From the IMG/VR virus record IMGVR_UViG_3300032315_000470, positions 1 to 64,000 of that record: 64,000 nucleotides of DNA; one strand, 5' to 3'. Below are positions 25,618 to 43,184 of the stretch, piece by piece. The DNA comes from a virus. The notes beneath the pieces were generated by a model. The model saw only the letters and a program-made list of their open reading frames with translations. It did not search any database and was not told the DNA's origin. Position numbers and translations under genes: made by a program. Numbering within the stretch: position 1 is the first letter of the stretch; each line of letters starts with the position of its first letter.

Positions 25618-25937
25618 TGACAGAAGGTATTGATTATTGTTTCATCTATCCTAAAGATGATAATACTGCGGTAAACATTAGGTTGTTGCAAGGACCATAC
25701 AAAGACACATTATTCAAATACGGTAAGGTAAAGTTCAAAGAAGAAAATGAACAAATCTATTTACTTTTCGCCTACGATGTGTTAGAATCCACCGTAGATA
25801 CTCCTAAGAAACTGGAGAAAGATGGCAAGTTCAAAGATTACCTAGGTGATTTACTTGTCGAATTAATGTCAAATAATATTGAGCAGGAAATAGTGGATGA
25901 AACTGGAACAGACGATATTAAAAACCCTGATTTATAA
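25617..25937 (+). CDS. conserved protein between uvsX and gp41
   Basis: A 106-residue protein (IDYCFIYPKDDNTAVNIRLLQGPYKDTLFKYGKVKFKEENEQIYLLFAYDVLES). Mostly beta at the N-terminus with an acidic tail. Homologues in this position are typical of T4-like cyanophages, but I know no function. It overlaps gp41 by 41 bases, so gp41 translation probably depends on it. Confidence 0.6.
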   Translation: MTEGIDYCFIYPKDDNTAVNIRLLQGPYKDTLFKYGKVKFKEENEQIYLLFAYDVLESTVDTPKKLEKDGKFKDYLGDLLVELMSNNIEQEIVDETGTDDIKNPDL

Positions 25938-27288
25938 TGAAGAATTTCTGCGGAAAGTTTTACCATTTTTAAAGACGGAATATTTTAGTGATAGTGTAGA
26001 GAGAACTTTATTTAATGAGATTACATCGTTCACGGAAACTTATAATGCTGCGCCATCGGTTGAAGCAATTGATATTGCCGTCAAAGAAAGGCGTAATCTC
26101 ACGGATGACGAAGTTAAGAGATGTGAATCTTATCTTAAAGAAATCGAAGCTAATAGCCAAACAGAAACCAAGATTCAATGGCTTGTTGATAAAACAGAAT
26201 CGTTTTGCCAAGAGAAGGCCATATACAATGCAGTATTGGGGTCTATTTCAATTCTCGATGGCAAAGACAAAACGAATGATAAAGGTGCGATTCCCAAGAT
26301 ATTATCGGATGCTTTGGCCATTTCTTTCGACAACTCCGTAGGGCATGATTACCTAGAAAACTCAGATGAACGATATGAATTTTACCATAGAAAAGAAGAA
26401 CGAATACCCTTTGATTTGGAATATTTTAACAAAATTACAAAGGGAGGACTACCTACCAAAACCCTTAATATTGCTCTTGCTGGTACTGGCGTTGGTAAAT
26501 CTTTGTTTATGTGTCATGTTGCTGCCGGTGCTATGGTTCAAGGAAAAAATGTGTTATATATTACACTTGAAATGGCTGAAGAAAAGATTGCTGAAAGAAT
26601 AGATGCAAACTTATTGAATGTTTCACTTGATGATTTGATGGAACTACCTAAAGATTTATATGACAAGAAGGTTGCTCGTGTTCGTGAGAAATGTACCGGC
26701 AAACTTATCATTAAAGAATACCCAACCGCTTCAGCATCCGTAACACACTTCAGAACATTATTAAATGAACTCAACCTCAAAAGGTCTTTCGTACCTGACA
26801 TTATCTTTATTGATTATCTTAATATCTGTTGTTCTTCTCGTATTAAGGCTGGTGCGAATATTAACTCTTACACTTACGTTAAGTCAATCGCAGAAGAACT
26901 TAGGGGCCTTGCGGTTGAACATAATGTTCCTATTGTATCTGCTACACAGACTACAAGGAGTGGATTTACATCGAGCGATCCTGGTTTGGAAGATACGAGT
27001 GAGTCATTCGGGTTACCTGCAACCGCCGACTTAATGTTTGCTTTGATTTCTTCAGAAGAACTGGAAGAACTTGGCCAAATTATGATCAAACAATTGAAGA
27101 ATAGATATAATGATCCAACATTTCACAAACGATTCACTCTCGGGGTTGATAGAGCTAAAATGAAACTATATGATGTCGAACAATCCGCACAGACGGGTAT
27201 TGCAGATGCTGGCCATGATAAACCATTAAACACGTTTGGTACAAGAGAAGAAAAACAAAAGAAATCATTTAATGGATTTAAAGTATGA
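25897..27288 (+). CDS. 41: replicative helicase gp41 (DnaB-like)
   Basis: A 463-residue protein (T4 gp41: 475). The N-terminal domain LIYNEEFLRKVLPFLKTEYFSD is of gp41 type. Walker A is GTGVGKS (~195-201), Walker B DIIFIDYLN, then SATQTTRSG and a C-terminal arginine-finger region ending in DRAKMKLYDVEQ. It unwinds the fork 5'-3' and recruits primase gp61 (45174). The start lies deep in the preceding gene, but the N-terminal match supports it. Confidence 0.93.
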   Translation: MKLEQTILKTLIYNEEFLRKVLPFLKTEYFSDSVERTLFNEITSFTETYNAAPSVEAIDIAVKERRNLTDDEVKRCESYLKEIEANSQTETKIQWLVDKTESFCQEKAIYNAVLGSISILDGKDKTNDKGAIPKILSDALAISFDNSVGHDYLENSDERYEFYHRKEERIPFDLEYFNKITKGGLPTKTLNIALAGTGVGKSLFMCHVAAGAMVQGKNVLYITLEMAEEKIAERIDANLLNVSLDDLMELPKDLYDKKVARVREKCTGKLIIKEYPTASASVTHFRTLLNELNLKRSFVPDIIFIDYLNICCSSRIKAGANINSYTYVKSIAEELRGLAVEHNVPIVSATQTTRSGFTSSDPGLEDTSESFGLPATADLMFALISSEELEELGQIMIKQLKNRYNDPTFHKRFTLGVDRAKMKLYDVEQSAQTGIADAGHDKPLNTFGTREEKQKKSFNGFKV

Positions 27289-28415: not shown

Positions 28416-29657
28416 ATGGCCGATACCACCACACTAAACGAAACTGCTCAAGCACTATTTTGTTCTTTAGCTGACTATGCCGGTTTGCAATTAACCGAAA
28501 AGATTTTTGTTATAGAAAAATATCCAACATATCCGTTATTTCGTAGTTTTTGGAACAGCAAGGAAAATCCTGTTAAAGGCCTAACAATTGAACAAGCCTA
28601 TAATAAAAGGGTTGATGCTCCTAACGTAACATTCCAGATGTTAGAAACACACTTAACGAATAATAAAGATTGGTTTACATCGTCACTTCTTGTTGCCAAA
28701 AAATTAATGGAAGATATTCAAACGGTTAGTGCGCAATTTAGTACGATCAAACAACCAAAATGGTCCGATATTTTTTATGTTCGTGGTGATAAACCTGTCA
28801 TGAAAACGATTGAGGATCTTTTCAATATTGCTAATGAAACACAAAAAGAATTGAATAAAATACACGATTCTGACCGAGCAGTTGTTTTTGGTGATATCAA
28901 TAAGTGGTCACCTGCCGACATTTATTTTACGACAGAAGGTATGCGTAAGAAATTGGATGAATCTTTATATACAGCAAATAAAAATTCCAAAACATTTACC
29001 TTCATTCAACTCAATAAACTTATAAGTGATGGTATCAACAAAGGTGAGTTGTTACCTTTATCACTAAAAAAACAAACAAAACAGGTCGTATTACAAAAAG
29101 TAAACTTTAATCGAGCTTCCGAAATTAAAAAAATTGGTTCTTATGGTTACTTTGGTGTTAGTGATTGGAAATTATATACAGTAAAATCTCCTCAAACTAG
29201 AGATTTAAAAATATTTTTTGAAAAAACAAAAAAAGATCATATCAAAGTTAGACATGACGCATCTACTGCCGGTTTAAAATCCGAATATATTGGCGCAGAC
29301 GCTGAAGCACGTGGGGGATCAATAGGTTCTATAAACATTTTTACAGATTTGATATCCCTATTGGATCCTAAGTTTGGTAGAGAATTATTATCAATCTATA
29401 ATGATGGTAATAAGAAGTTTAAAGAACAAGTTAAGAATCTTGGGCCAAAACCAACAGATCCAAAAGTCAAAAAAATATTTGATGCCAAAAGAGGAGAATT
29501 GAGTGCATTGTATGTAACAAATGCTATAATTCCACCATTGTTGAAATGGTTAAAAAGTGGTGAAAATAATGGACGTTCTGATGAATTTGTACGATTGATT
29601 TACCAATATATGACCTCCAGAACAGTCATGTCAAGTAAATTTGTAATAGCAAAATAA
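28416..29657 (+). CDS. conserved late protein of unknown function
   Basis: A 413-residue soluble protein. Notable blocks are ADYAGLQLTEKIFVIEKYPTYP, NKWSPADIYFT, and RHDASTAGLKSEYIGADAEARGGSIGS. The last, with its Gly/Ala-rich turn and conserved charges, looks like an active or binding site. I have seen the WSPADIY and GAEARGGS-type pattern in proteins of T4-like marine phages but cannot name a function. Driven by a late-type promoter, it may be virion-associated. Confidence 0.5.
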   Translation: MADTTTLNETAQALFCSLADYAGLQLTEKIFVIEKYPTYPLFRSFWNSKENPVKGLTIEQAYNKRVDAPNVTFQMLETHLTNNKDWFTSSLLVAKKLMEDIQTVSAQFSTIKQPKWSDIFYVRGDKPVMKTIEDLFNIANETQKELNKIHDSDRAVVFGDINKWSPADIYFTTEGMRKKLDESLYTANKNSKTFTFIQLNKLISDGINKGELLPLSLKKQTKQVVLQKVNFNRASEIKKIGSYGYFGVSDWKLYTVKSPQTRDLKIFFEKTKKDHIKVRHDASTAGLKSEYIGADAEARGGSIGSINIFTDLISLLDPKFGRELLSIYNDGNKKFKEQVKNLGPKPTDPKVKKIFDAKRGELSALYVTNAIIPPLLKWLKSGENNGRSDEFVRLIYQYMTSRTVMSSKFVIAK

Positions 29658-29666
29658 GGATAAATT

Positions 29667-29945
29667 ATGGCACTTATTGATTTTGATAAACTAGCACAAG
29701 AGTTTGATGCTACTGATGACTTTGGATTCTCTGCTGTTTCTGAAGAAGAATACAATGCTGTGGTCAACAAAACAGCTGAAACAGCTGATGATTATAAAAC
29801 TCGTCTTACTGAAGTGGAAAAAATAATTATACCCTTTCTTCAAAAGTTACATTCGACTGGAGAAAAAGAATACATATATTGGCCTAATCGTAAACCGATT
29901 ATTGAAAAACAAATTGAAAGAATATTGAAATTAACTAGAGATTAA
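29667..29945 (+). CDS. small conserved phage protein
   Basis: A 92-residue acidic helical protein (MALIDFDKLAQEFDATDDFGFSAVSEEEY, then EKEYIYWPNRKPIIEKQIERI). The D-F-G-F-S/T-A-V and KEYI-x-WPNR patterns are those of a small family regularly present in T4-like cyanophages. No function known. Precedes the sugar-enzyme cassette. Confidence 0.6.
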   Translation: MALIDFDKLAQEFDATDDFGFSAVSEEEYNAVVNKTAETADDYKTRLTEVEKIIIPFLQKLHSTGEKEYIYWPNRKPIIEKQIERILKLTRD

Positions 29946-29948
29946 ATT

Positions 29949-30665
29949 ATGTCTGCTACCGTGATTATACCAACTACTGGATCACCAGAAGTTAAACTTG
30001 CTGTCGAATCTGTTCTGAATCAAAGTCATCCTACCACATGTTACGTTGTAATTGATGGTGATGAGAATGTAGAAAAAACATTAGAAGTATTAGATTCAAC
30101 CCTAAATGATGAACGAGTACAAATTTGTTCACTACCAATCAATGTTGGTGCCAAAGGTTTCTATGGTCACCGTGTCTATGCTGCATTTACCCACCTAGTT
30201 GATACTGAATATGTTTCTTATCTGGATCAAGATAATTGGTTATATCGATCACACGTTAAAGAGTGTATTGACACAATTCAAAAATCAAACCTAGACTGGT
30301 GTTATTCGTTACGACAGATATACAACAAACAAGGAAAACTGGTCACCTTTGATGACTGTGAATCTTTAGGTATTTGGCCAACATATCATGGCCATCATCA
30401 CATAGATACTAATTGTTATTTTATAAAAACAGATGTGGCAACAAAAATTGCAAGTGTTTGGCACGGTGGTTGGGGACAAGATAGAGTTTTTCTACAGGCA
30501 ATCACTAAACATTTTCCCAAGTTCTATTGCACTGGTGAATACACAACTTGTTATAGAGTGGACGGTGGTCAAGGTTCTGTTACAGCAGAATTCTTTCAGA
30601 ATGGTAATAAGATAATGAATGAAAAATATAATGGAGTTTTCCCGTGGCGAGCAAAAAAGATTTAA
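29949..30665 (+). CDS. family 2-type glycosyltransferase
   Basis: A 238-residue GT-A enzyme: SATVIIPTTGSPEVKLAVESVLNQ at the N-terminus, VIDGDEN, and VSYLDQDNW with Asp-Gln-Asp as the metal and nucleotide-sugar site. HGGWGQDRVFLQAI is the acceptor side. First of a seven-gene cassette (29949-35017) of overlapping sugar-handling genes. The likely target is a surface glycan or virion glycosylation, but the substrate cannot be read. Confidence 0.78.
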   Translation: MSATVIIPTTGSPEVKLAVESVLNQSHPTTCYVVIDGDENVEKTLEVLDSTLNDERVQICSLPINVGAKGFYGHRVYAAFTHLVDTEYVSYLDQDNWLYRSHVKECIDTIQKSNLDWCYSLRQIYNKQGKLVTFDDCESLGIWPTYHGHHHIDTNCYFIKTDVATKIASVWHGGWGQDRVFLQAITKHFPKFYCTGEYTTCYRVDGGQGSVTAEFFQNGNKIMNEKYNGVFPWRAKKI

Positions 30666-31501
30666 TCATTGGTGCATTTACAAATTACAATTACAATCAA
30701 CTAAAGCCTTGGGTTGAATCGATTGATGAACTGTATGGTTCAGACAACATCGAAAAGGTAATGGTTGTTGGTAATGCTTCACAAGAAACTAAAGATGAAC
30801 TAATAAAGAGAAATTTCACTTTAGTTGATATGCCACAAGCAAATATTCCTGTGCATGTTCTTCGTTTTCTTTCCATATACGAATATCTAAGAACAAACTA
30901 TAACAAATATCGATATGTGGTTACCACAGATGTTAAAGATGTATATTTTCAAAAGAATCCATTTCAATGGTTAGAAAACAATTTGGGTTCTTGTAAATTG
31001 GTTGCCGGTTCAGAAGGTATGAGATACAAAGATGAGCCTTGGGGTAATGAGAACTTAATGCAAGCCTATGGTCCGTATGTACACAGTCTATTCAAAGACA
31101 ATACAATTTACAATGTAGGAACGATTGGTGGTGAATCGGAGTATGTTAAAGACCTAGTGTTCAACATCTTCACTAATGCCACCAACCGTCCAATTCCTAT
31201 CGTTGACCAAGCGGTATACAATGTACTAATCAATACTGTACCATATAGTGACATTACTTATTTCGCATATCAATTAGATGGATGGGCAGTTCAGGCCGGC
31301 ACAACAGTAGATCCATCCAAAATAGAACAGTTTAGGCCACATCTACTAGAAGCTGAGCCTAAATTTGAAGATGGTGTTGTTAAAACATCTTTGGGACAAC
31401 CTTTCTGTATTGTGCATCAATATGACCGAGTACCTGAATGGAAAAAGTTTGTTGAAAAAAAATATGGACAAGAAGATTTAATTACTTTTAGGACAATATA
31501 A
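30644..31501 (+). CDS. glycosyltransferase-like protein
   Basis: A 285-residue protein starting at GTG inside the end of the previous gene (22-base overlap; GGAG upstream). DLIIGAFTNYNYNQLKPWVESI, then YRYVVTTDVKDVYFQKNPFQWLE (DVKDVYF as the DxD-like site), and LVAGSEGMRYKDEPWGNENLM are features of nucleotide-diphospho-sugar transferases of phage and surface-polysaccharide loci. Confidence 0.6.
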   Translation: MASKKDLIIGAFTNYNYNQLKPWVESIDELYGSDNIEKVMVVGNASQETKDELIKRNFTLVDMPQANIPVHVLRFLSIYEYLRTNYNKYRYVVTTDVKDVYFQKNPFQWLENNLGSCKLVAGSEGMRYKDEPWGNENLMQAYGPYVHSLFKDNTIYNVGTIGGESEYVKDLVFNIFTNATNRPIPIVDQAVYNVLINTVPYSDITYFAYQLDGWAVQAGTTVDPSKIEQFRPHLLEAEPKFEDGVVKTSLGQPFCIVHQYDRVPEWKKFVEKKYGQEDLITFRTI

Positions 31502-32028
31502 TGGACTTTGAAAAAGAATATCAAGATGCGTGTGTGAGGGTTACGGATATACATGAACACTTACCAGTTTTATCTGATTTAACCTCACAATGTAATTATG
31601 TAACCGAACTTGGTGTTGGTTGGGCTCAAAGCACAAGAGCATTTCTCCGTCACGATGTTACGTTACATAGTTATGAATATCTTCCGCAACCAGGAATTGT
31701 AGATTTCTTTATTCAAGCCAGAAATGCTGGTCGTAATGTTGCTTTGCATATTGCTGATACTAGAAAAGTTGAGATTGAGCCTACAGACTTATTATTTGTT
31801 GATAGTTTACACATCTACGAACAAGTGAAAACCGAATTAGAATTACACGCAGATAAAGCAAAAAAATATATTGTATTTCACGACACAACATCTTATGCCG
31901 ATAATGGTGAGTTCGGCGGCAAAGGCATTTGGCCTGCCATTCAAGAATTCATTGATTCACATTCGGAATGGCAATTGGTTGAAAGAAGAACAAATAATAA
32001 CGGACTAACAATATTAAAACGAGCATGA
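31501..32028 (+). CDS. SAM-dependent methyltransferase-like protein
   Basis: A 175-residue Rossmann protein: YVTELGVGWAQSTRAFLRH (motif I, E-L-G-V-G), LHSYEYLPQPG, LLFVDSLHIYEQVKTELELHADKAKKYIVFHDT. This is the Methyltransf_24-type layout (D-S-x-H-x-Y...H-D). It probably methylates a sugar or small acceptor within the cassette. Starts on the last base of the preceding stop. Confidence 0.68.
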   Translation: MDFEKEYQDACVRVTDIHEHLPVLSDLTSQCNYVTELGVGWAQSTRAFLRHDVTLHSYEYLPQPGIVDFFIQARNAGRNVALHIADTRKVEIEPTDLLFVDSLHIYEQVKTELELHADKAKKYIVFHDTTSYADNGEFGGKGIWPAIQEFIDSHSEWQLVERRTNNNGLTILKRA

Positions 32029-32792
32029 GTATATCTTTTTTTCATATAGCTGCATATACTAAGTCTGCTGAAGTTATTGTTGAATCGGCGAGAAAACATC
32101 ATCCAAAAGATTTTTATTTTCTTGGTGTTGATGGAGAACACGACATTGCTGAATTTGCAAAAAATAATGATTGCCATTATAAAAAGTTTACACCAATAGG
32201 ACCACCAATATATCCACAAGGTTGGAACTTAGATAGGTCATTAGAATTTTTGGACCGTTTTTACACCACCTGTCAACTATCAAAGGCATCCCACATAATT
32301 ATGATGGAAGATGATGTATTGATATTGAAACCTATTACCGTGAATCCTGAATGGGAACATGCTTGTGCTGACACAAAAGTTGGTAATATAATACCCGAAC
32401 CGGTTCACGATTTAATTGAACAACATTGTGGTAAACGGCCAACATTTAAACAATATGGTGCCGGTGGAGGTTCAATATTTAAAGTTAAAACATTTATGGA
32501 TCACTATGATACAAATATTGAATGGTTTAAAAAACATTTTGATGAAATACAATCTTATTATCCAACCATAGGTTATTTGGATTGTTTTATGAATGTCTAT
32601 TATTTTTTAGCTGGCAAAGATTATTGTGTAAATTATCGTAGAGCTGACACACATAATCATAAAGCAGGATTTGATTATGAAAAATTTATAGACAATTTAC
32701 CAAGCGATGTTGAGATTTTAAATAATTATAAAAAATATTATTTTAAAACCAATGATGAGGTTATAACATTTAACACAGAGCAACTAGTATGA
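32025..32792 (+). CDS. glycosyltransferase-like protein
   Basis: A 255-residue protein. SISFFHIAAYTKSAEVIVESARKHHP, then ASHIIMMEDDVLILKP (EDD near residue 91) as the DxD-type metal site, then GAGGGSIFKVKTFMDHY and YLDCFMNVYYF. The EDDV pattern is common in LPS-type glycosyltransferases. The gene is clearly more AT-rich in codon choice than its neighbours. Overlaps both neighbours by four bases. Confidence 0.6.
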   Translation: MSISFFHIAAYTKSAEVIVESARKHHPKDFYFLGVDGEHDIAEFAKNNDCHYKKFTPIGPPIYPQGWNLDRSLEFLDRFYTTCQLSKASHIIMMEDDVLILKPITVNPEWEHACADTKVGNIIPEPVHDLIEQHCGKRPTFKQYGAGGGSIFKVKTFMDHYDTNIEWFKKHFDEIQSYYPTIGYLDCFMNVYYFLAGKDYCVNYRRADTHNHKAGFDYEKFIDNLPSDVEILNNYKKYYFKTNDEVITFNTEQLV

Positions 32793-33586
32793 ACGACATT
32801 ACAATAGTTACTGCTTTTTTTGATATTGGTAGAGGTGATTGGACTCCAGAAAAAGGATTACCACACTATCTACAACGAACAAGTAAGACCTATTTGGAAA
32901 GATTTGGCCACTTAGCCAAGTTGGAAAATCCAATGGTTGTATATACATCTAAAGAATTTTCTGATGATATACGATTTTTAAGGCAAGATAGGCCAACCGA
33001 AATACTGATTATTGATTTCAATAATTCTTTTGAAAAACTCAAAGAAGAAGTTTCTAATGTACAAAAGAATCCAGAATATCAATCGAAAATAAATCCCATG
33101 CAAGTACGCAATCCAGAATATTGGAACGCTGATTATGTGGTAGTAAATGCTTTAAAGTCGTCCTTTGTTACAAGAGCTTTACAGAGCCAACTTATAAAAA
33201 CGGATTTGGTTGCTTGGTTAGATTTTGGTTACTGTCGTGATGCATCAACACTCAATGGTGTAAAAAAATGGAAATACAATTTTAACAAAGAGAAGATTCA
33301 TTTTTTCAATGTTAAAGATTATGTCGATGGTACATATATTCAAGATATTATTGCAAATAATGATGTACATATTACAGGCCCATGTATTGTTGCTAGTAAG
33401 GATATGTGGCCTACACTCGAAGCATTAGTTTACCATAGTATTACTGAACTAATTAAAAATGACTTGATTGATGACGACCAAACTTTGTTGTTGATGTCAT
33501 ACTTACAAAAACCTGAAATATTCGAATTACATAGAGTTTCTGGTGATGATTGGTTTGTAGCTTTTAAGGAATATAATGAAGATTAA
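32789..33586 (+). CDS. HtrL/YibB-like protein
   Basis: A 265-residue protein. It begins DITIVTAFFDIGRGDWTPEKG and has YLERFGHLAKLENPMVVYTS and LVAWLDFGYCRDA, the layout of the HtrL_YibB family (WlaTC-like), encoded in bacterial surface-polysaccharide loci and some phages. A GT-A-like fold is probable (WLDFG as a degenerate DxD). Exact activity unknown. Confidence 0.68.
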   Translation: MNDITIVTAFFDIGRGDWTPEKGLPHYLQRTSKTYLERFGHLAKLENPMVVYTSKEFSDDIRFLRQDRPTEILIIDFNNSFEKLKEEVSNVQKNPEYQSKINPMQVRNPEYWNADYVVVNALKSSFVTRALQSQLIKTDLVAWLDFGYCRDASTLNGVKKWKYNFNKEKIHFFNVKDYVDGTYIQDIIANNDVHITGPCIVASKDMWPTLEALVYHSITELIKNDLIDDDQTLLLMSYLQKPEIFELHRVSGDDWFVAFKEYNED

Positions 33587-34307
33587 AATTGATTGCACAG
33601 CCAACCTTGGCGATTTCTGTAATGCATTACCTGTAATATCTGGTATCTCAAAATATAAAAATGAAAAAATTCATCTTATCATTAGACCAGAAATGCGTAA
33701 GTTTAATGGCATCAAAGAGTTTTTAAAATATCAACCAATGATTGAAGATGTGGATTTCTCAGATGATTTACTTGTCTTTGGTGATGTCATGACAATTAGT
33801 TCATGGACTCGTATGGACCAAGAAGATTCAAATCGTCCTATTGAGACCTGTCGTTATGAAAATTGGGTAAACGATAATTACGGAATGTTATTTGAAGTTG
33901 ATGATAATTTTGAGATTCAAGTTTTCCCAATGTTTATTGATAATTTAAATGACAAAACTATTGTTGGTGATAGATGGTCTGCAAAACAAGATCCTAATGT
34001 TGATGCGAGGCGTTCTACCAATGTTATTGAGAATGGTGCAAATCTCGACCATGACAAGGTTGTATACATGGATTACTCAAAGCCACTAATGTATAATTGC
34101 AATCTTATTAAACAGAATCCCAATCCATTTATTACTACATTTACAGGTATTGGTATTATTGCTGACCTAATGAACAAAGAAACAATTGTTGGTTGGGATG
34201 AAGATATGAGGACTTGGGATGGCCATCCTGTTGAGTTTGATTTTAAACGACACTACTATGGTAATCGCAAATCAAAATTAGTTTATGTAAAAGATATTAC
34301 ACTATGA
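33576..34307 (+). CDS. GT-B-like protein, N-terminal-half type
   Basis: A 243-residue protein. KIDCTANLGDFCNALPVISGISKYKNEKIHLII is the G-D/N-x-x-x-x-L-P-x-I opening of GT9-type (heptosyltransferase-like) enzymes. The rest lacks the usual GT9 donor-binding C-terminal half. The next gene looks like the missing half. It overlaps both neighbours. Could act with the next product as a split enzyme. Confidence 0.45.
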   Translation: MKIKIDCTANLGDFCNALPVISGISKYKNEKIHLIIRPEMRKFNGIKEFLKYQPMIEDVDFSDDLLVFGDVMTISSWTRMDQEDSNRPIETCRYENWVNDNYGMLFEVDDNFEIQVFPMFIDNLNDKTIVGDRWSAKQDPNVDARRSTNVIENGANLDHDKVVYMDYSKPLMYNCNLIKQNPNPFITTFTGIGIIADLMNKETIVGWDEDMRTWDGHPVEFDFKRHYYGNRKSKLVYVKDITL

Positions 34308-35017
34308 TCATTAACATTGAACCAGGCACTTTTGGTACAATTCGTAATGGTGATATGATTGCTGTTGCGAATGTACTAGAACACATTAGAAAAACAAATA
34401 ACGATCCTACAATACAGTTTCATTTGAAACCAGGAAATGTTAGCTCAGACACACATTGTCAAACATTTTATGAGATAATGTTGAAGATGACTAACTATTT
34501 CTCCAAAGAAGAAGGTACAGAGTCTTTACCTTGGAGAAAGGTCAATGTTTGGGACTTTAGAGATATCTCTGGTGACCTGGTAAAAATACACAATGATGTC
34601 GAAATGCAGAAGAAGATTGTTATTTTTCCATTGTTTGATGCACCATACAACACATACCGAAATTGGCCAAAAGAATTATTACCACACTTGATTGAAAAGT
34701 ATAGTACCGAAGAATATAAAGATTATGAGAAAATAATCTGTAAGAAAGGTGAACCGACAGAAGGTTGCCCATTTGAAGGTTGGAGGTATTCTACCAACTT
34801 TGTTCAAAATTATTACCACATTACCACATCAGAAATCTTTATTGGTGGCGATACTGGTTCTAGCCATTTTGCTTGGGCTCTTGACAAAGGACCTAAAGAC
34901 CTGATATACTATAACTCCAGTAGGGGACTGATACATACTCTACCATTTTACCTATTGCAGGGAAAAGGTAGAATGACAAACTATTGGTTGGATTTTGAAA
35001 ATACAAAATGGAATTAA
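34304..35017 (+). CDS. GT-B-like protein, C-terminal-half type
   Basis: A 237-residue protein. The C-terminal part EIFIGGDTGSSHFAWALDKGPKDLIYYNSS matches the GT9 donor-site pattern (G-x-D-T/S-G-x-x-H-x-A-x-A). The N-terminal part (IINIEPGTFGTIRNGDMIAVANVLEH) looks like a Rossmann half. Last gene of the sugar cassette. A gene-free stretch of 124 bases with late promoters follows. Confidence 0.5.
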   Translation: MIINIEPGTFGTIRNGDMIAVANVLEHIRKTNNDPTIQFHLKPGNVSSDTHCQTFYEIMLKMTNYFSKEEGTESLPWRKVNVWDFRDISGDLVKIHNDVEMQKKIVIFPLFDAPYNTYRNWPKELLPHLIEKYSTEEYKDYEKIICKKGEPTEGCPFEGWRYSTNFVQNYYHITTSEIFIGGDTGSSHFAWALDKGPKDLIYYNSSRGLIHTLPFYLLQGKGRMTNYWLDFENTKWN

Positions 35018-35071: not shown

Positions 35072-35096
35072 TATAAATCCAAAAGTTGTATAAATA
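35072..35096 (+). promoter_or_regulatory. tandem late promoters
   Basis: TATAAATC (35072-35079) and a perfect TATAAATA (35089-35096) in the 124-base intergenic space before the internal-head-protein cluster. The second is 46 bases before the ATG. Confidence 0.7.
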
Positions 35097-35141
35097 AGCG
35101 AACGGCAACCAAAGTGTGTTGCAAATCTAGTAAGGAAATCA

Positions 35142-36332
35142 ATGTTATCATTTAAGTCATTCTTAAAAGAAGAATCTGAGACCGGTTCTGAACTTAAACA
35201 CATTCATCATGCCGAAGATAGACCTTTAATGCATGGTCATTCTGGTTTTGAACACGCTCATGCAGCTTTGATGAAAGCTCATGCACACATGACCGGTGGA
35301 CATAAAAGTACCAATTTGACAATGAAATATGATGGTTCACCATCCATTGTTTTTGGCCATCATCCTAAGAATAATAAATTCTTTGTTGCAACCAAATCGG
35401 CTTTCAATAAGAATCCAAAGATTAATCACACAGAAGCCGATATTGATAGAAATCATGGCCATGCACCAGGATTAGCAAAAACACTCAAACACGCTCTCAA
35501 ACATCTACCAAAAGTAACACCCAAACAAGGAGTGTTTCAAGGCGACTTGATGCACCATGCAGATACCAAAACACTACACGAAGGTTATCTAGCAGAAGCT
35601 AAAGGTGATGTTTCTTTCACACCAAATACCATCACATATACCGCTAAAGGTAAAGAAGCTGACAAGATTAAAAAGTCTAAAGTTGGGGTTGTGGTTCACA
35701 CCCAATATAGTCACGACTTGAAACACAATACACCCCATGTAGATACCAGTAAATTTAAAGAGCATCCAGATGTACACATTCATGGTGCTGAACATGACAC
35801 AAGTAAAGTTAAACACTCGGCAGAGAACGAGAAACACTTCCAGAAACATATGGCGGCCGCCAAAGAAATTCATGACACACATGGTCACAAAATGTATGAT
35901 TCTATACACAAAAATCATAGTGGAGAAGCTGGCCACCTATCGACATACATAAACAAGACAGTAAGACACGATGAAGTGCCTAGTGTAAAAGGTTTTAAAG
36001 AACACTTACATGATGTTCATTCTAAAATGGCTGCAAAAGTTAAAACTGATAAATCGAAATCAGAAAAAACAAAACAGGGAGAGTCTGAAATCTCTCATGT
36101 TGAAAAACACAAAGCACATTATGGAAACTTATTGTCAATGCATCACCATTTACACCAAGCCAAAAACGCTTTGGTTAAATCATTAGAAACACATGAGGGA
36201 CATTACCAACACCATATTGAAGGTAAAAAGTCTAAACCTGAAGGTTTCGTAGTTCATCACGACAGTCAACCAACCAAATTGGTTAACCGTGCTGAATTTG
36301 CTAAACAAAATTTATTAAAAGTTAGAAAATGA
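35142..36332 (+). CDS. ligase-like nucleotidyltransferase, putative internal head protein (DUF6267-like)
   Basis: A 396-residue His/Lys-rich protein. The N-terminal peptide MLSFKSFLKE (L8-K9-E10) matches the capsid-targeting peptide of T4 internal proteins. Motifs in the order of covalent nucleotidyltransferases are MKYDGSPS (motif I, Lys62-x-Asp-Gly), VFQGDLM (Gly134-Asp-Leu), EGFVV (motif IV, Glu367) and KLV (motif V, Lys379). I associate this type with the DUF6267 phage family. The inference is a nucleic-acid or RNA-ligase-type enzyme carried in the head. Lys62 would be the adenylated residue. Driven by late promoters at 35072-35096. It overlaps the next gene by four bases. Confidence 0.55.
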   Translation: MLSFKSFLKEESETGSELKHIHHAEDRPLMHGHSGFEHAHAALMKAHAHMTGGHKSTNLTMKYDGSPSIVFGHHPKNNKFFVATKSAFNKNPKINHTEADIDRNHGHAPGLAKTLKHALKHLPKVTPKQGVFQGDLMHHADTKTLHEGYLAEAKGDVSFTPNTITYTAKGKEADKIKKSKVGVVVHTQYSHDLKHNTPHVDTSKFKEHPDVHIHGAEHDTSKVKHSAENEKHFQKHMAAAKEIHDTHGHKMYDSIHKNHSGEAGHLSTYINKTVRHDEVPSVKGFKEHLHDVHSKMAAKVKTDKSKSEKTKQGESEISHVEKHKAHYGNLLSMHHHLHQAKNALVKSLETHEGHYQHHIEGKKSKPEGFVVHHDSQPTKLVNRAEFAKQNLLKVRK

Positions 36333-38314
36333 AATCTTTTTTAGAGTTAGTCGAAGAAACAAAACAAGGCGAAAAACACCATGTAATGACCTTTGGTCGG
36401 ATGAATCCACCAACCACAGGTCATTTAAAGTTAATCGACAAAGTAAAAGAAGTCGCCGATAAAAATAAAGCCAGTCATTCTGTTGTGGTTTCTCACTCAC
36501 AAGATTCTAAGAAGAATCCACTATCTGGTGAAACCAAAGTCAAACATCTTAAAAGATATTCTCCAGGTACTCATATTGAATCATCCTCAAAAGAACATCC
36601 AACATTCTTACACCACGCAGAAAAGTTACACAAAGCTGGCGTCACCCATTTACACATGGTAGTTGGTTCTGACCGTGTTAAAGAAATGAAAGAAAAACTT
36701 AACCAGTATAATGGCACACATAAAGGTGCATTATACAACTTTAAGAAAATTACTGTACACTCAGCAGGTCATCGTGATCCTGATGCAGAAGGTTCTGAAG
36801 GTATGTCAGGCACCAAAATGCGTAGTCATGCGGCTTCAGGTAATTATAAAGAGTTTAAAAAAGGCGTTCCTGGTCATGTTGCCGACCACCATGCAAAAGA
36901 ACTCTATCATGATACACGCAAAGGTATGGGAATACACGAAAATATCAATCGTGGACTATTCAAGGCTATCTTTGTTACTGGTGGTCCAGGTTCGGGTAAA
37001 GATGTTATCATTCGTGAAGCCATTGCAGAATCAAGAGCAGTAGAATTGAATGCTACGCAAGCCTTTGATTACCTTGCGGATAAACAAAAACTTGCAGAAA
37101 AAACAAGTGATTTCCGTAGAGAATCTATCAGAAACCGTGGTCCTCTAATTATCAATGGACCAGCAGATAACATTGATAAGATTAACCATATTAAAGAAGA
37201 ACTGGAAGAATTAGGTTATTCCACAATGATGGTGTTTGTCAATACAACAAACGAAATTAGTCAAGAAAGAAACACCAAACTGTCTAGGATGATGGTCGAA
37301 TCGATTAGATATGACAAGTGGTCACAATCTCAGAAAAACAAAAGACTTTTTTCAGAATCTTTTGGTGATTTTATACAAATTGACAATACTGGTTCATTGG
37401 AATCAATTGAACAAGATATCACAAATACCTACATAAATATAAATGCATTTATAGAAAATAAATCCTATAATGAAGTATCATTATCATGGCTCGAAAACCA
37501 CGGTAAGTTAAATATAGGTGATAAACTCGATATTATTAAGGAAGAAAGAAATGTTCAAAGCGCTAATAAATTTATTCAGATCAAAACCAATCGTGGACTC
37601 AAAGCCGCCGGTCTCGGCAGTATCCCAGCCGACAATCGTGCAGGAGACCCCAACGCAGACGACATCAAGTGGGACGCACCAAAAAGAACAAAAACCTACA
37701 CGTTCCGAACCTACAGCGAAGAAAGCAAGCCCACGCTCACGATCAACCCAGTCCCAAAAGAAGCCAACTTCTCCAAAGACAAAGAAAAAGTAAAGAATAA
37801 AAAACGATATTCGGATGCCCCAACAGTAAGTCAAAGACTACGAAACACCACGGGTGTGGGGCCAGAATTCGATACACGCCAGCAGGGAACAGTATATCCC
37901 ATGTCCGGTCTTGGCGATGTAACATACAGAGAACAAAAAGAATTTAATAGTTTTAGAAAAACAATTAAAGAATACAAAGGATTTCAGAATGATACTTCCA
38001 TATCGGATATGGGAGTAGGTGGTGTTCTGAACGGTGCGACAAATTTTGAGCCCATGCAGTCTTATAAAGATGCAGAACGAAATATTGGTGTGGCTATTAC
38101 CAAAAAGAAAAAACCTGTAAAAGAAGATGCGGTGAGTAAGTTAGAAACTGGTTTAACTAAGTTACAGAAAACCGATTATGACACTATTGATAAGTTGATG
38201 ACAAGAATCTCTAAAGATGAGAAAACAACAGGTAAAGATTTACATGACGATTTTGTAAAAAAACACGGTAAGGTACCGGACAATTGGATAAAAGACAAAA
38301 AACAGGAGAAATAA
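36329..38314 (+). CDS. nucleotidyltransferase-kinase fusion, putative internal head protein
   Basis: A 661-residue protein with three parts. After an N-terminal MKSFLELVEE targeting-like peptide, residues ~18-170 form an HIGH-type nucleotidyltransferase: MTFGRMNPPTTGHLKLI and, later, MSGTKMRSHA (the S-x-T-K-x-R motif). Residues ~213-370 are a P-loop kinase-like domain (VTGGPGSGKDVIIREAI). The C-terminal ~290 residues are low-complexity with conserved blocks such as DAPTVSQRLRNTTGVGPEF. It resembles NMN adenylyltransferase fused to a nucleoside or ribosylnicotinamide-type kinase. A polynucleotide kinase role beside the ligase-like protein is an alternative. A second gene is nested at 37551. 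Confidence 0.62.
   Translation: MKSFLELVEETKQGEKHHVMTFGRMNPPTTGHLKLIDKVKEVADKNKASHSVVVSHSQDSKKNPLSGETKVKHLKRYSPGTHIESSSKEHPTFLHHAEKLHKAGVTHLHMVVGSDRVKEMKEKLNQYNGTHKGALYNFKKITVHSAGHRDPDAEGSEGMSGTKMRSHAASGNYKEFKKGVPGHVADHHAKELYHDTRKGMGIHENINRGLFKAIFVTGGPGSGKDVIIREAIAESRAVELNATQAFDYLADKQKLAEKTSDFRRESIRNRGPLIINGPADNIDKINHIKEELEELGYSTMMVFVNTTNEISQERNTKLSRMMVESIRYDKWSQSQKNKRLFSESFGDFIQIDNTGSLESIEQDITNTYININAFIENKSYNEVSLSWLENHGKLNIGDKLDIIKEERNVQSANKFIQIKTNRGLKAAGLGSIPADNRAGDPNADDIKWDAPKRTKTYTFRTYSEESKPTLTINPVPKEANFSKDKEKVKNKKRYSDAPTVSQRLRNTTGVGPEFDTRQQGTVYPMSGLGDVTYREQKEFNSFRKTIKEYKGFQNDTSISDMGVGGVLNGATNFEPMQSYKDAERNIGVAITKKKKPVKEDAVSKLETGLTKLQKTDYDTIDKLMTRISKDEKTTGKDLHDDFVKKHGKVPDNWIKDKKQEK
37551..37793 (+). 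CDS. overlapping-frame small protein (candidate)
   Basis: An 80-residue protein in the +1 frame inside the previous gene: amphipathic start MFKALINLFRSKP, then a Pro/Thr/Ser stretch (TPTQTTSSGT), then a Lys/Ser tail (RSTQSQKKPTSPKTKKK). AAGGA lies eight bases before its ATG. Over the same bases (about 37590-37760) the GC content is visibly higher than around it, as expected where two frames are constrained. Lacks a signal peptide or lipobox, so it is not a spanin. Confidence 0.4.
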   Translation: MFKALINLFRSKPIVDSKPPVSAVSQPTIVQETPTQTTSSGTHQKEQKPTRSEPTAKKASPRSRSTQSQKKPTSPKTKKK

Positions 38315-38315
38315 A

Positions 38316-39680
38316 ATGTTTGTCAATAAGTTAAAGATGGATAAAATTGCTGAAGCAGTTAAAAAGTGTATGGACGAAGCCGACTTGGAAGAAACGGGTC
38401 TACGCAAAGCCGCCTATGCTGCTCACACCAAAGGCGAAAAAATGTTTTCGTTTAAAGGCAAAACATATCCTGTTAAAGTTCAAGGCGAAGAAGTTTCATA
38501 TGGTAAAGAGATAAAAGAAGCTTCTTGTGAAGATGAAGTAAAAAAACATGAAAAAAGATTACATGGCAAAGATGGCGAAGTCAGTAAGCATGTAGATAAG
38601 ATGCACAAAGAAGAATTATCGCCAAAACAAAAGAAGATTGCTAAACTCAATCATCCAAAAGATGAAATTGATGCTGGTGATTTGGCCAAATTACGTGGTG
38701 AAGAAACTGAATTAGACGAAGCTGAAAAAGTGGCGACTGCTACAGGTATGAAAGTTTATGGTTCTTCTTATGGTGATTCAGCGAGAGCTCGCCGTGATCA
38801 AGTTAAGAAAGAAATTGATACAATCAAAGGTCCTACAACTAAACAACTAGTTGGTGTTGAAAAAGAAAAAGTTAAGAAAGAAGAATTCTTCAAAGATAAA
38901 TTAATCTCTAATTACATTGAAGAAGAATCTTTATTCGAAGATGAACTACAAGAAGTTCTTTCTAAAGATGCAACTGCTGGTGATTGGATTAGTGATTTTG
39001 TTCATTCAGATAATCCTAAGTTTGAAGGTAAATCTAAAAAGATGCGTCAAAAGATGGCACTTGCAGCCTACTATGCAAAAAAGAATGAATCGGTAGATGA
39101 TAGTTATCCTGTAACAACAGACACCGTTGCTGGCCGTATGCCAGGTGGAGTGTCAAATACCTTCAAACAATTCAAAGTGAAAGTTTCAGCTAAAGATAAA
39201 GAAGCGGCTGAAACAAAAAATACAATTCCAAACTCCGATCCAATGAACTTGACTGCTCGTGACCCACATGTTGGCCATGGTGGTTTGGTATCGATTCCTC
39301 CAGCAGGTGTTGTTCGTAAAGAAGAAGTTGAATTGGATGAAGCAACTCCACCAAAGAATACAGATGTTGCAGATAAATCTTACTTGAAAGATATGGGTAA
39401 AAAACCTACTGTTAAATCTGATCTGAAAAACTTCAAAAACTTTTTAACTGGTAAAAAAGAAACAAACGAAGGTAAACAACCAGAAACAGATAATGTTCCT
39501 TTTGTAACAAATGCAGACCAACCTCCTTTTGATGGTCCATACAAAAAAATTGATAAAACAACAACCGATAAATCTGGTGCGAAACACACACCAATGAGCC
39601 GTGCAAAAGATTTGGCTCAATCAGCAATGAAACGTGTTAAAACAGAAATGCTGGGTAAGGCTCCTGGTAATAACGGTTAA
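38316..39680 (+). CDS. putative processed internal head / scaffold-associated protein
   Basis: A 454-residue lysine- and glutamate-rich protein. The N-terminal MDKIAEAVKKCMDEADLEE is followed by AYAAHTKGEKMFSFKGKTYPVK, a short conserved unit. Repeated acidic linkers (EETELDEAEK, KEEVELDEAT) fit the [L/I]-x-E cleavage rule of the T4 prohead protease gp21 at LDE. Another unit, DWISDFVHSDNPKFEGKSKKMRQKMALAAYYAKK, resembles a short helical domain found in such phage proteins. AGGAG precedes the ATG. No enzymatic motif seen. Confidence 0.5.
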   Translation: MFVNKLKMDKIAEAVKKCMDEADLEETGLRKAAYAAHTKGEKMFSFKGKTYPVKVQGEEVSYGKEIKEASCEDEVKKHEKRLHGKDGEVSKHVDKMHKEELSPKQKKIAKLNHPKDEIDAGDLAKLRGEETELDEAEKVATATGMKVYGSSYGDSARARRDQVKKEIDTIKGPTTKQLVGVEKEKVKKEEFFKDKLISNYIEEESLFEDELQEVLSKDATAGDWISDFVHSDNPKFEGKSKKMRQKMALAAYYAKKNESVDDSYPVTTDTVAGRMPGGVSNTFKQFKVKVSAKDKEAAETKNTIPNSDPMNLTARDPHVGHGGLVSIPPAGVVRKEEVELDEATPPKNTDVADKSYLKDMGKKPTVKSDLKNFKNFLTGKKETNEGKQPETDNVPFVTNADQPPFDGPYKKIDKTTTDKSGAKHTPMSRAKDLAQSAMKRVKTEMLGKAPGNNG

Positions 39681-39688
39681 GGTACAAG

Positions 39689-41086
39689 ATGAGTTTATCT
39701 AAAAAACTGAAGATGATTATTAAAGGTGAACCAAAGCCCACCTTTGGCACCGATCCTAACGAACCATGGTCAGTTCGTGCAGGTATCACGGAAGGTGAGG
39801 CTGGATTTTTATCTTCTTATTTAAAGTCGAGGGGAATTAATCCTGAATTTGTAAGTAGAGATACAAAAATTTCACATGCCAAATCGGCTGAATTTTTCAA
39901 GTGGAAAAGAGACCATAGATTTGATGATCCAGCAGATACCGTATCTTCTGTTACAAGGGATAAAATGAAAGCCCAAAGAGAAGAAGTGCAGGTCGATGAA
40001 GCCAAAACTATTCAAGGCACGGCTTTAGATAAGTTTCGTCAGGCTGCAGCAGAAAGAGCAAGAAAACACGATGACATCGAAAGAGAAATGAAAGCTCGTC
40101 ATGCTGCTGGTAAAGAAGATATGAAAGGTTCTATCGACCGTTTAGAAAAACAATTGAACAAAGAAGAATCTGGCATCAGCAAAGCAAAAGAAACCTCATT
40201 TCATAAAAAATTGGATACTTTAGTTCATAACACCTTTGGTAAAAGAAAAGATGAATTGAAAATGAAAGAAGAAGTTGAATTGAAGGAAGTTAAAAATTAT
40301 CCATTTAGTTATCGTGCAACATATCATGATCCTGATACGAATAAAATTACTCATATGATGGATTTTAAACATAAAAGCTTAGATGCAGCTAAAAAACATG
40401 CAGAAGGTTCTAGACTGCAACGTAGAGATGGTAAAGAAGATATCCTTCATTCGGTCGTTCAAGTTAAAGAAGAAGTTGAACAGGTTGATGAAATTTCGAA
40501 ATCAACATTAGATTCATATAAAGATAAATCTTCAGCCAGCCTTAAAAATGCTAAGATAAACCGGGATGCAGCAGAACCAGGTAAAAATATGTCTAAAGCA
40601 TTCGCTGATTTGCATGCCAAGTCCAATGCAATTGCCAAGAAGCGTGTAAAAGGTCTGATGGGTTATCTTCAACGCAAACAAGGTGTAAAACCTATGGGTG
40701 AAGATGTCTATCAAGATCCACAAGCAGCAACTCAGACAGCCTTTGATATGGGAACTCAAGCTGATGACAGAGAACCCACCTATTCTCGTAAAAAAGAAAT
40801 GTCCAAGTCTGCTCGGATGATTAAATCTTTGTATAAGAAACACAAGATGGTGAAAGAAGAACTTTACGATCACGAAAAAGAAGATAAGTCCGTATCAACC
40901 TATGGTAAGAAACCAAAGGTCGAAAAGGTACAAGATGATGGTGACGAAAATAACCAAGCATCTATGGTGTTAAAAGGTGGCAAGACACTAACGGGTCAAA
41001 CTAGAGATACCCTCGAAATTGATCCTGTAATGAGAAAACCATCAAGTCCTGATAACAAAAACAGCAGTACGAAAACAGATAAATAA
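39689..41086 (+). CDS. putative processed internal head / scaffold-associated protein
   Basis: A 465-residue charged helical protein with the same linker family: REEVQVDEAK, KEEVELKEVK, KEEVEQVDEIS. Between them lie small units, including SFHKKLDTLVHNTFGKRKDE, YRATYHDPDTNKITHMMDFKHKSLDAAKKHAEGS and KSTLDSYKDKSSASLKNAKINRDA. The modular layout of short units joined by acidic cleavable linkers suggests that it is cut into peptides during head maturation. No N-terminal targeting peptide like its neighbours (MSLSKKLKMIIKGE). Confidence 0.45.
   Translation: MSLSKKLKMIIKGEPKPTFGTDPNEPWSVRAGITEGEAGFLSSYLKSRGINPEFVSRDTKISHAKSAEFFKWKRDHRFDDPADTVSSVTRDKMKAQREEVQVDEAKTIQGTALDKFRQAAAERARKHDDIEREMKARHAAGKEDMKGSIDRLEKQLNKEESGISKAKETSFHKKLDTLVHNTFGKRKDELKMKEEVELKEVKNYPFSYRATYHDPDTNKITHMMDFKHKSLDAAKKHAEGSRLQRRDGKEDILHSVVQVKEEVEQVDEISKSTLDSYKDKSSASLKNAKINRDAAEPGKNMSKAFADLHAKSNAIAKKRVKGLMGYLQRKQGVKPMGEDVYQDPQAATQTAFDMGTQADDREPTYSRKKEMSKSARMIKSLYKKHKMVKEELYDHEKEDKSVSTYGKKPKVEKVQDDGDENNQASMVLKGGKTLTGQTRDTLEIDPVMRKPSSPDNKNSSTKTDK
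41078..41085 (+). promoter_or_regulatory. late-type promoter GATAAATA
   Basis: GATAAATA overlaps the stop codon of the preceding gene, 32 bases before the structural gene at 41117. Confidence 0.45.
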
Positions 41087-41806: not shown

Positions 41807-42193
41807 ATGATTGATGATTTGAATGACGACAATTTTATGATATATGCAGTTAAGTGCTATAATGCACCACATTGTATTATGTCCGAATTCGAAAGTGATA
41901 TCAAACGAACAAAGTATTTAAAGAGGTTGTTTCGTAGGTATAAAATTACAAAATCTCTTAAAGAGAGATTGATATTGAATCATATTATTTTATTGAATAA
42001 TGTTTTTGGTCCAGAACACACGGCAAGAATATTGTTCTATAAAATAGACGAAAGAGATTATGATATTTTGAAAACTTTTTTGTCTTATCTGAATATAGTT
42101 CCCGAAATGGTTTATGGAGTTAGAGGTAAAAACATTCCGGTTGCAGAAATTCCAATAGATAATAATATCGCAGAGATACTTAAACGAATATGA
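41807..42193 (+). CDS. conserved T4-like phage protein
   Basis: A 128-residue helical protein. NDDNFMIYAVKCYNAPHCIMSEFESDIKRTKYLKRLFRRY, then SLKERLILNHIILLNNVFG and FLSYLNIVPE, make up a family I recognise from T4-like cyanophage late regions (DUF7207-type). Function unknown. A four-base overlap couples it to the next gene. Confidence 0.6.
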   Translation: MIDDLNDDNFMIYAVKCYNAPHCIMSEFESDIKRTKYLKRLFRRYKITKSLKERLILNHIILLNNVFGPEHTARILFYKIDERDYDILKTFLSYLNIVPEMVYGVRGKNIPVAEIPIDNNIAEILKRI

Positions 42194-42510
42194 AAACATT
42201 TAAACAGTTCCTAGAAGAAGATTACTTGGATGAAAAATCTCCAGCATGGCAGCGATCTGCCGGCAAAAATCCAGAAGGCGGTTTAAATCGTAAAGGTATC
42301 GCATCTTACCGCAGAGAAAATCCTGGTTCTAAATTGTCTATGGCTGTTACAACAAAACCATCCAAATTAAAACCTGGTTCTAAATCAGCAAATCGTAGAA
42401 AATCATTTTGTGCTCGTATGGGTGGCATGAAGAAAAGATTAACTTCAGCTAAAACAGCGAATGATCCGGATAGCCGTATCAATAAAGCATTAAGAAAGTG
42501 GAATTGCTGA
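42190..42510 (+). CDS. DUF6321-like basic protein with head-targeting peptide
   Basis: A 106-residue strongly basic protein. MKTFKQFLEE matches, residue for residue in layout, the T4 internal-protein targeting peptide MKTYQEFIAE. A second possible cut, YLDE, follows at residue 15. The body SPAWQRSAGKNPEGGLNRKG, then KPSKLKPGSKSANRRKSFCARMGGMKKRL and DPDSRINKALRKWNC, is the DUF6321 pattern. Probably a DNA-associated internal head protein. Confidence 0.68.
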   Translation: MKTFKQFLEEDYLDEKSPAWQRSAGKNPEGGLNRKGIASYRRENPGSKLSMAVTTKPSKLKPGSKSANRRKSFCARMGGMKKRLTSAKTANDPDSRINKALRKWNC

Positions 42511-43184
42511 TGAAATCATTTAAACAATATCTTGGTGAAGATTTAAGACAATGGTTTAAACAAAAGTGGGTTCGCATGGACACCAAAGGTAATATTAAAG
42601 GCGACTGTGCAAGAGAACCAGGTGAAGGTAAACCAAAGTGTTTACCCCAAGCAAAAGCTCATGCAATTGGTAAAGAAGCTCGTGCTTCTGCTGCTCAAAG
42701 AAAGCGTAGAGAGGATCCTAATCCAGAACGCCGTGGTGCGCCAATCAATGTAAAGACAGAAGAAGTCGATGAAGCCTGTTGGGATGGATATACAGCCAAA
42801 GGTTTAAAGAAAAAAGGCAATCGCATGGTGCCTAATTGTGTACCAGAGGAAGTTGAATCTATTGATGAAAAGAATGTACCAACAAGTCCAGAAAAGTGGG
42901 CTCGTGCTAAGGCGGCCGCCAAATCCAAATTTGCAGTATATCCATCCGCATATGCAAATGGATGGGCATCGAAAAAATATAAAGCTATGGGTGGTGGATG
43001 GAGAACCGAAGAAACAGTTAGTGAAGATGGCGCAATGGGTGGTTCTGCTGGTCCAACTAATGTGGTCGGCACTGGTGCAATTGCCGGAACAGGCGGTAAA
43101 GGCGGTGAACCAGGAGTTTATCTGCCAAGAAGAAAAAAGAGTGCCGTATTGATGAATATGATTAAAAGAAAGGCAACACAGTAA
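42510..43184 (+). CDS. DUF5872-like basic protein with head-targeting peptide
   Basis: About 224 residues. Begins MKSFKQYLGED (L-G-E at 8-10). RQWFKQKWVRMDTKGNIKGDCARE with KPKCLPQAKAHAIGKEARASAAQRKRREDPNP is the DUF5872 pattern. Acidic linkers (TEEVDEACWDG, PEEVESIDEKN) separate it from KKKGNRMVPNCV and PEKWARAKAAAKSKF...YPSAYANGWASKKYK, units widespread in phage internal proteins. The ATG at 42510 shares its A with the preceding stop. Leads directly into the lysis genes. Confidence 0.65.
   Translation: MKSFKQYLGEDLRQWFKQKWVRMDTKGNIKGDCAREPGEGKPKCLPQAKAHAIGKEARASAAQRKRREDPNPERRGAPINVKTEEVDEACWDGYTAKGLKKKGNRMVPNCVPEEVESIDEKNVPTSPEKWARAKAAAKSKFAVYPSAYANGWASKKYKAMGGGWRTEETVSEDGAMGGSAGPTNVVGTGAIAGTGGKGGEPGVYLPRRKKSAVLMNMIKRKATQ

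Follow-up and report, generated by a model that had tools for sequence, protein, structure and literature searches.

DUF6267 proteins of T4-like phages are predicted to be divergent ligase-type nucleotidyltransferases, many of them with a capsid-targeting-like tag

The internal head proteins of bacteriophage T4 (IPI, IPII, IPIII and Alt) begin with a ten-residue tag that has aromatic residues at positions 4 and 7, Leu or Ile at position 8 and Glu at position 10. The ten N-terminal residues of IPIII suffice to carry a protein inside the head. Targeting involves positions 4 and 7, and cleavage positions 8 and 10, the protease gp21 cutting after L/I-x-E (PMC9026906). The cyanomyoviruses carry the T4 replisome without gp30, and according to a review of 2010 they either rely on the host ligase or encode a distant homologue that has escaped recognition (PMC2984593). 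In NadR, an HxGH adenylyltransferase domain is followed in the same chain by a P-loop kinase domain (PMC9503650). The RNA ligase of Naegleria gruberi (Rnl5 type; 6vt1, 5cot), T4 Rnl2 (PF09414) and the ATP-dependent DNA ligases (T4 gp30, human Lig1; PF01068) are the described enzymes to which the protein reported here is compared in fold.

The window, by which we mean the whole stretch of 64,000 nucleotides of viral DNA that was analysed, contains a gene of the DUF6267 family. The gene and the segments of its product are placed as follows.

35133–35136, + strand: Shine-Dalgarno-like AGGA (direct reading)
35142–36332, + strand: DUF6267 (PF19782) gene, 396 aa, ATG start, predicted ligase-type nucleotidyltransferase (Pfam, alignment, fold model)
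35325–35336, + strand: motif I, K62-Y-D64-G65, invariant in both alignments, Lys62 being the predicted nucleotidyl acceptor
35538–35546, + strand: motif III, Q133-G134-D135, Q and D invariant, in strand 131–139
35682–35708, + strand: motif IIIa-like strand, residues 181–189, VGVVVHTQY, His186 invariant (AlphaFold2 model)
35799–36200, + strand: helical insertion between motifs III and IV, residues ~220–353 (~130 aa) in the AlphaFold2 model
36240–36251, + strand: motif IV, E367-G-F-V370, E, G and V invariant
36276–36290, + strand: motif V, K379-L-V-N-R383, K and R invariant

The earlier note on this DNA had called the product DUF6267-like, and a Pfam profile search agrees, with a match to PF19782 at 321 bits (1.4e-95); phrog_455 matches at 9e-89. 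Both entries are without function, and a literature search for DUF6267 returned no paper. Matches to the protein by tblastn are present in 465 of 50,697 phage records, almost all of which belong to T4-like phages of Synechococcus and Prochlorococcus, the other carriers being phages of Pelagibacter, Methylophilales, Stenotrophomonas and Pseudoalteromonas. Because of these profile and tblastn matches, the open reading frame is regarded as a real gene and not a chance frame. The gene also occurs in many freshwater relatives of the marine T4-like cyanophages, and its matches in collections of bacterial and archaeal genomes lie chiefly on MAG contigs of probable phage origin. The protein contains 13.6% His and 13.9% Lys and has a pI of 9.5. 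The richness in His and Lys in its middle, remarked on earlier as unusual, is therefore genuine but belongs to one clade and not to the whole family, many homologues with identical motifs having only 1–2% His.

The four motifs stand exactly where they had been placed before, namely KYDG at residues 62–65, QGDLM at 133–137, EGFVV at 367–371 and KLV at 379–381. Two alignments were used, one of 21 homologues, mostly from named phages, and one of 75 non-redundant viral-contig homologues with 28–89% identity to the window protein; Lys62 and the other catalytic positions named from the motifs are invariant in both. K62, D64, G65, Q133, D135, E367, G368, K379 and R383 are conserved in 75 of 75 viral-contig sequences, down to 28% identity, and the other invariant positions are H20, H23, E25, G35, P67, G72, P75, F81, V82 and K85 in the N-terminal part and N162, Y166, G182, H186, N271, K341, V370, F386 and N390 in the rest. 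The family consensus reads K-x-D-G-[AS]-P for motif I, F-V-[GA]-x-K for a following strand, Q-[GA]-D for motif III, G-[VI]-V-x-H for the IIIa-like strand, E-G-[FYI]-V for motif IV and K-[LIF]-V-x-R for motif V. The spacing is fixed, with 69–77 residues from motif I to motif III and 11–17 from motif IV to motif V. A generic ligase pattern (K.DG, G[DE], EG[FYILVM][VIM] and K.., in this order) is found in 156 of 176 DUF6267 open reading frames, in 2 of 200,000 shuffles of the window protein and in none of the 402 other neighbourhood open reading frames of at least 300 aa, figures that are optimistic because the pattern was drawn up with the motifs already known. The motif set is more than chance. 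The conserved H20-x-x-H23-x-E25 ahead of motif I has led us to consider NAD+ as a possible cofactor.

An AlphaFold2 model built from the 75-row alignment has a pLDDT of 88.8 and a pTM of 0.87, and falls below 50 pLDDT only at residues 1–17 and 144–152. K62 lies at the end of strand 55–62, D135 inside strand 131–139, and E367 and K379 at the C-terminal strand pair (368–373 and 376–380). The insertion between motifs III and IV is rich in His and Lys in the clade of the window and much shorter in some cyanophage homologues of ~300 aa. Foldseek against the PDB gave nothing with E below 0.001 and hence no significant ligase match, probably because the helical insertion dominates the comparison. VIA-align 2 was needed, since Foldseek alone would have missed the ligase fold; it rescored only Foldseek's 822 best chains, and the top 33 PDB chains of that set are all RNA or DNA ligases. 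The best is the Naegleria RNA ligase (Z 9.3, a moderate value, over 185 residues at 3.7 Å), and the others include a fungal tRNA ligase (Z 8.1), T4 Rnl2 (7.9), a trypanosome editing ligase (7.6), T4 Rnl1 (7.5) and human Lig1 (6.4). Counted back from the aligned ends, which gives a register short of a residue-level alignment, E367 and K379 stand no more than about one residue away from E312 and K326 of the Naegleria enzyme, residues that are named in the PDB titles. In these model-based comparisons the Z scores are moderate, yet the list is uniform and agrees with motifs that played no part in choosing it. Against viral models, Foldseek recovers the DUF6267 family and its fusions as well as a protein of Pseudomonas phage PA5oct (E 5e-4), and annotated viral ligases appear only at E above 1. 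The predicted structure holds the nucleotidyltransferase core expected from the motifs and Lys62 is conserved, so that neither outcome named in the earlier note as refuting its proposal came about, and a ligase-type nucleotidyltransferase fold is highly probable on the strength of the model.

The kinship to known ligases lies at the level of fold and motifs, because profile methods find nothing. The DUF6267 family profile searched against PDB sequences with hmmsearch gave only chance matches to coiled coils; hhalign of DUF6267 against the T4 Rnl2-family profile gave a probability of 0.1%; and a Pfam scan of 75 members gave matches to 72 families, mostly by chance, among them a lone RNA_lig_T4_1 match at E 0.017 that is within chance. 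PF09414 and PF01653 gave no match in the scans of the window protein and the 75 members. Kinship by sequence profile was accordingly rejected. Since both Foldseek and the comparison with the Rnl2 profile came back blank, the word "divergent" in the earlier proposal of a divergent RNA/DNA ligase is right; a ligase fold is predicted as well, and ligase function is what we infer from it.

The family also departs from known ligases in detail. Motif III has Asp where ligases carry Glu, and motif V reads K-L-V-x-R instead of K-x-K, so that the second Lys is absent and Arg383 stands two positions on. The protein ends 17 residues past K379, in one helix; because it stops there, it has neither a C-terminal OB domain nor motif VI. 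The Naegleria RNA ligase is similar in fold, motif order and K-x-D-G, with 14 residues from motif IV to motif V compared with 12 in DUF6267. However, DUF6267 lacks its N-terminal OB domain, has Asp in motif III, is only 10% identical and has a stretch from motif III to motif IV that is longer by ~150 residues, owing to the helical insertion. T4 Rnl2 shares the fold over 176 residues, and neither protein has an OB domain after motif V, but DUF6267 shows no profile similarity to it and has the helical insertion instead of an Rnl2-type C-terminal domain. ATP-dependent DNA ligases share the core fold (Z ~6.4), motifs I and IV and the first Lys of motif V, whereas DUF6267 lacks their OB domain, motif VI and Pfam match. 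DUF6267 appears, as far as the model allows, to be a new branch of the covalent nucleotidyltransferases. The window protein is likely to be an active enzyme of this kind, and the narrower prediction that it is a nucleic acid ligase stands at about an even chance.

The gene next to DUF6267 has the following parts.

36329–38314, + strand: partner gene, 661 aa, with HxGH adenylyltransferase, P-loop kinase and unassigned tail
36377–36937, + strand: HxGH adenylyltransferase domain, GRMNPPTTGH ... SGTKMR (PF01467; PPAT/NMNAT fold)
36938–37498, + strand: P-loop kinase domain with a GKD Walker A, probably degenerate

The HxGH domain matches the PPAT/NMNAT fold with Z 14.5. Of 106 loci with sufficient flanking sequence, 100 have an HxGH gene beside DUF6267, and it is fused after DUF6267 in at least seven loci (L108, L111, L112, L127, L142, L161 and L162) and before it in at least three (L152, L163 and L170); this linkage is the most telling functional link of DUF6267. 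The domain order of the partner gene is that of NadR, but it scores only 16 bits with the NCBIfam nadR model, for which the cut-off is 341 bits, and its kinase active site is altered. Its Walker A reads GGPGSGKD, without Ser/Thr, in all two-domain homologues shown, and the acceptor-side Asp (NSD) is gone in the clade of the window and kept in the stand-alone kinases of L155, L160, L168 and HTVC008M. Neither Walker A GxxxxGK[ST] nor the acceptor-side Asp of polynucleotide kinases is present in the window's clade. To judge by these motifs, the kinase domain is probably degenerate there, with the HxGH domain still conserved. The neighbour common to these phages is thus the HxGH gene and not a kinase, and the reading of the two genes as a kinase and ligase that heal and seal ends, put forward in the earlier note, was abandoned as the main one because of the degenerate kinase motifs. 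In the DUF6267 protein of L152 (1066–3000), to which an HxGH domain is fused at the N-terminus, there is also a HAD-type phosphatase-like segment with YDFDDT, seen by eye and without a Pfam match, that is reminiscent of T4 Pnkp.

Such a partner lends itself to the explanation that DUF6267 is a covalent nucleotidyltransferase other than a nucleic acid ligase: the acceptor of the AMP or GMP bound to Lys62 would be a small molecule, a protein or the 5' end of an RNA, and the HxGH enzyme would act in the same pathway. HxGH enzymes make NAD+, CoA or activated intermediates, and the fusions on either side, the deviating motifs III and V and the absent OB domain all fit this explanation. However, the nearest structures are all polynucleotide ligases, and to our knowledge no C-terminal OB domain is present in Rnl1, Rnl2 or the RNA-editing ligases either, so that this account is possible but rather improbable.

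A still less likely alternative is that DUF6267 is an RNA (tRNA) repair ligase injected as infection begins, which would reverse the cuts of a host anticodon nuclease after the partner's kinase domain has healed the ends. The best structural matches are RNA ligases, the phage has seven tRNA genes, and the nearest single-domain structures to the kinase domain include the Clostridium thermocellum polynucleotide kinase (fold E 8e-6; E 0.015 by sequence against Pnkp). However, adenylate and thymidylate kinases tie with that enzyme as fold matches, Walker A Ser/Thr and acceptor Asp are both missing from the kinase domain of this clade, and neither a phosphatase nor a 2H partner was found adjoining DUF6267.

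The N-terminus of the window protein and two further genes bear a capsid-targeting-like tag.

35089–35096, + strand: TATAAATA, T4 late-promoter -10 sequence whose first base lies 53 bp ahead of the ATG
35142–35171, + strand: capsid-targeting-like tag MLSFKSFLKE, residues 1–10, with F4, F7, L8 and E10 in the register of T4 IPIII
42190–42510, + strand: DUF6321 protein, 106 aa, strict tag MKTFKQFLEE, pI 10.5
42510–43184, + strand: 224-aa protein, strict tag MKSFKQYLGE, pI 9.8

The arrangement of aromatic residues, Leu/Ile and Glu is the same as in the internal head proteins of T4, and the window protein has a basic character and a late-promoter sequence in common with them. The cargo would differ, being a predicted ligase-type enzyme and not the restriction inhibitor or ADP-ribosyltransferase of T4 heads. 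The tag region (residues 1–17) is disordered in the AlphaFold2 model. A strict form of the tag (M..[FY]..[FY][LI].E) is present in 43 of 75 DUF6267 homologues and in 3 of 25,900 shuffled N-termini (0.012%). Tagged isolates include Stenotrophomonas phage DLP6 and Methylophilales phage Melnitz. The idea that all family members bear the tag was rejected, as the DUF6267 proteins of marine cyanophages begin directly at the conserved core. The partner gene begins with a looser tag-like MKSFLELVEE, and the two short basic proteins listed above are candidate injected proteins by virtue of their tags. In the neighbourhoods L001–L080 and L097–L176, 44 of 968 other open reading frames, read from the first Met, begin with the strict tag, in at least 33 different sequences; the rate in shuffled sequences is about 390 times lower. 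Two lysine-rich open reading frames (454 and 465 aa) with no good family match follow the partner gene at 38316–41086, and may encode core or internal proteins.

The octamer TATAAATA, which we take to be the T4 late-promoter sequence, lies within 100 bp upstream of 24 of 52 tagged and 3 of 22 untagged non-redundant DUF6267 genes (p = 0.007); with N at its first base the counts are 32 of 52 and 4 of 22 (p = 0.0006), the tag being counted in a looser form and both p-values being generous because related sequences are not independent. It is contained in 1.6% of random 120-bp segments. Only its conserved place upstream of DUF6267 counts, because the octamer as such is at chance frequency in the window (6 found, 7.8 expected).

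Mass spectrometry has found 52 of the 219 proteins of cyanophage S-CREM2 in its virion (PMC10665884). All three of its strictly tagged proteins, the SAM hydrolase gp6, the kinase gp14 and the cytidylyltransferase gp154, are among them (one-sided Fisher p = 0.013, in a small sample). The virion cytidylyltransferase of S-SZBM1 has a tag-like start, MRFRQFIIEA, and a T4-GC190 cytidylyltransferase has been detected in S-SM1 virions (PMC3037559). The untagged DUF6267 proteins of S-CREM2 (gp87) and S-SZBM1 (gp135) are absent from the virion lists, in which neighbouring or tagged products are detected. In S-CREM2 and S-SZBM1, both the presence and the absence of the tag thus match the packaging data. 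Another S-CREM2 virion protein, gp12 (7704–10313 of L211), is annotated as Cas9-like and has a tag-like RFASFMAE ~18 residues from its start; this protein, gp6, gp13 and gp14 may all be injected cargo. A gene for a gp21-type prohead protease is present in 5 of 8 long DUF6267-bearing records, and no Peptidase_S77 (gp21-type) was found in the window's own record, a fragment of 71.7 kb. In the clade of the window, packaging of DUF6267 in the virion is reasonably likely. That the protein is a pseudo-enzyme, with the ligase fold retained in a basic internal head protein that aids DNA packing, would suit its pI, its abundant His and Lys and its head tag, but is very unlikely, since the catalytic positions are invariant family-wide, including the untagged cyanophage members undetected in virions, and the His-rich stretch is limited to one clade.

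In the cyanophages as in the window, DUF6267 lies between the genes for the replicative helicase and the primase.

25897–27288, + strand: gp41-like replicative helicase, upstream context
45174–46187, + strand: gp61-like DNA primase, downstream context

The region 28416–35017, between the helicase gene and DUF6267, holds glycosyltransferase-like and unassigned genes. DUF6267 is near-universal in T4-like cyanophages, with matches in 369 Synechococcus and 61 Cyanophage records, compared with 376 and 61 for gp41 counted at a stricter cut-off. Eleven of 13 DUF6267-bearing records searched have none of PF01068, PF09414, PF09511 and PF01653, the first three of which were detected in T4 as the positive control. 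DLP6 and S-CRM01 have a recognised DNA ligase alongside DUF6267. Given the absence of ligase families, the near-universal spread and the position between gp41 and gp61, DUF6267 becomes a candidate for the ligase not recognised in these phages. A replication role is less easily reconciled with the tagged, late form, for which sealing of the incoming DNA or repair of RNA early in infection is a better fit. Both roles may be true in different clades.

We propose that lysyl-AMP forms by attack of Lys62 on the alpha phosphate of ATP (or NAD+), and that Asp135, Glu367 and Lys379 take the parts of the residues in motifs III, IV and V. The AMP would then be moved onto a 5' phosphate and the ends of the nicked or broken DNA or RNA joined. 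The tagged protein of this phage and of many relatives would be made late and drawn into the prohead core, a gp21-type protease would remove the tag after Glu10, and the protein would enter the host along with the genome, which would allow it to act before new protein synthesis. The untagged protein of marine cyanophages would be made intracellularly from a gene near the replication genes and may be the ligase thought absent. The best explanation overall is a divergent enzyme of the polynucleotide ligase superfamily, packaged and injected in its tagged form and serving as the cyanophage ligase in its untagged form, although this combination could equally well prove right or wrong. More tentatively, and with the balance somewhat against it, an injected, head-packed ligase would close nicks in incoming DNA or repair host RNA ahead of phage gene expression, coupled to an adenylyltransferase that may provide or regenerate its nucleotide cofactor, the untagged form being the missing cyanophage ligase.

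DUF6267, catalogued without a function, now has a testable enzymatic prediction, and it could explain why no ligase has been recognised beside the T4-like replisome of the cyanophages, as was pointed out in 2010 (PMC2984593). The tag gives a second, independent prediction, namely that a nucleic-acid-joining enzyme is delivered from the virion. Furthermore, the first ten residues suggest a simple way of listing likely injected proteins in uncultured T4-like phages.
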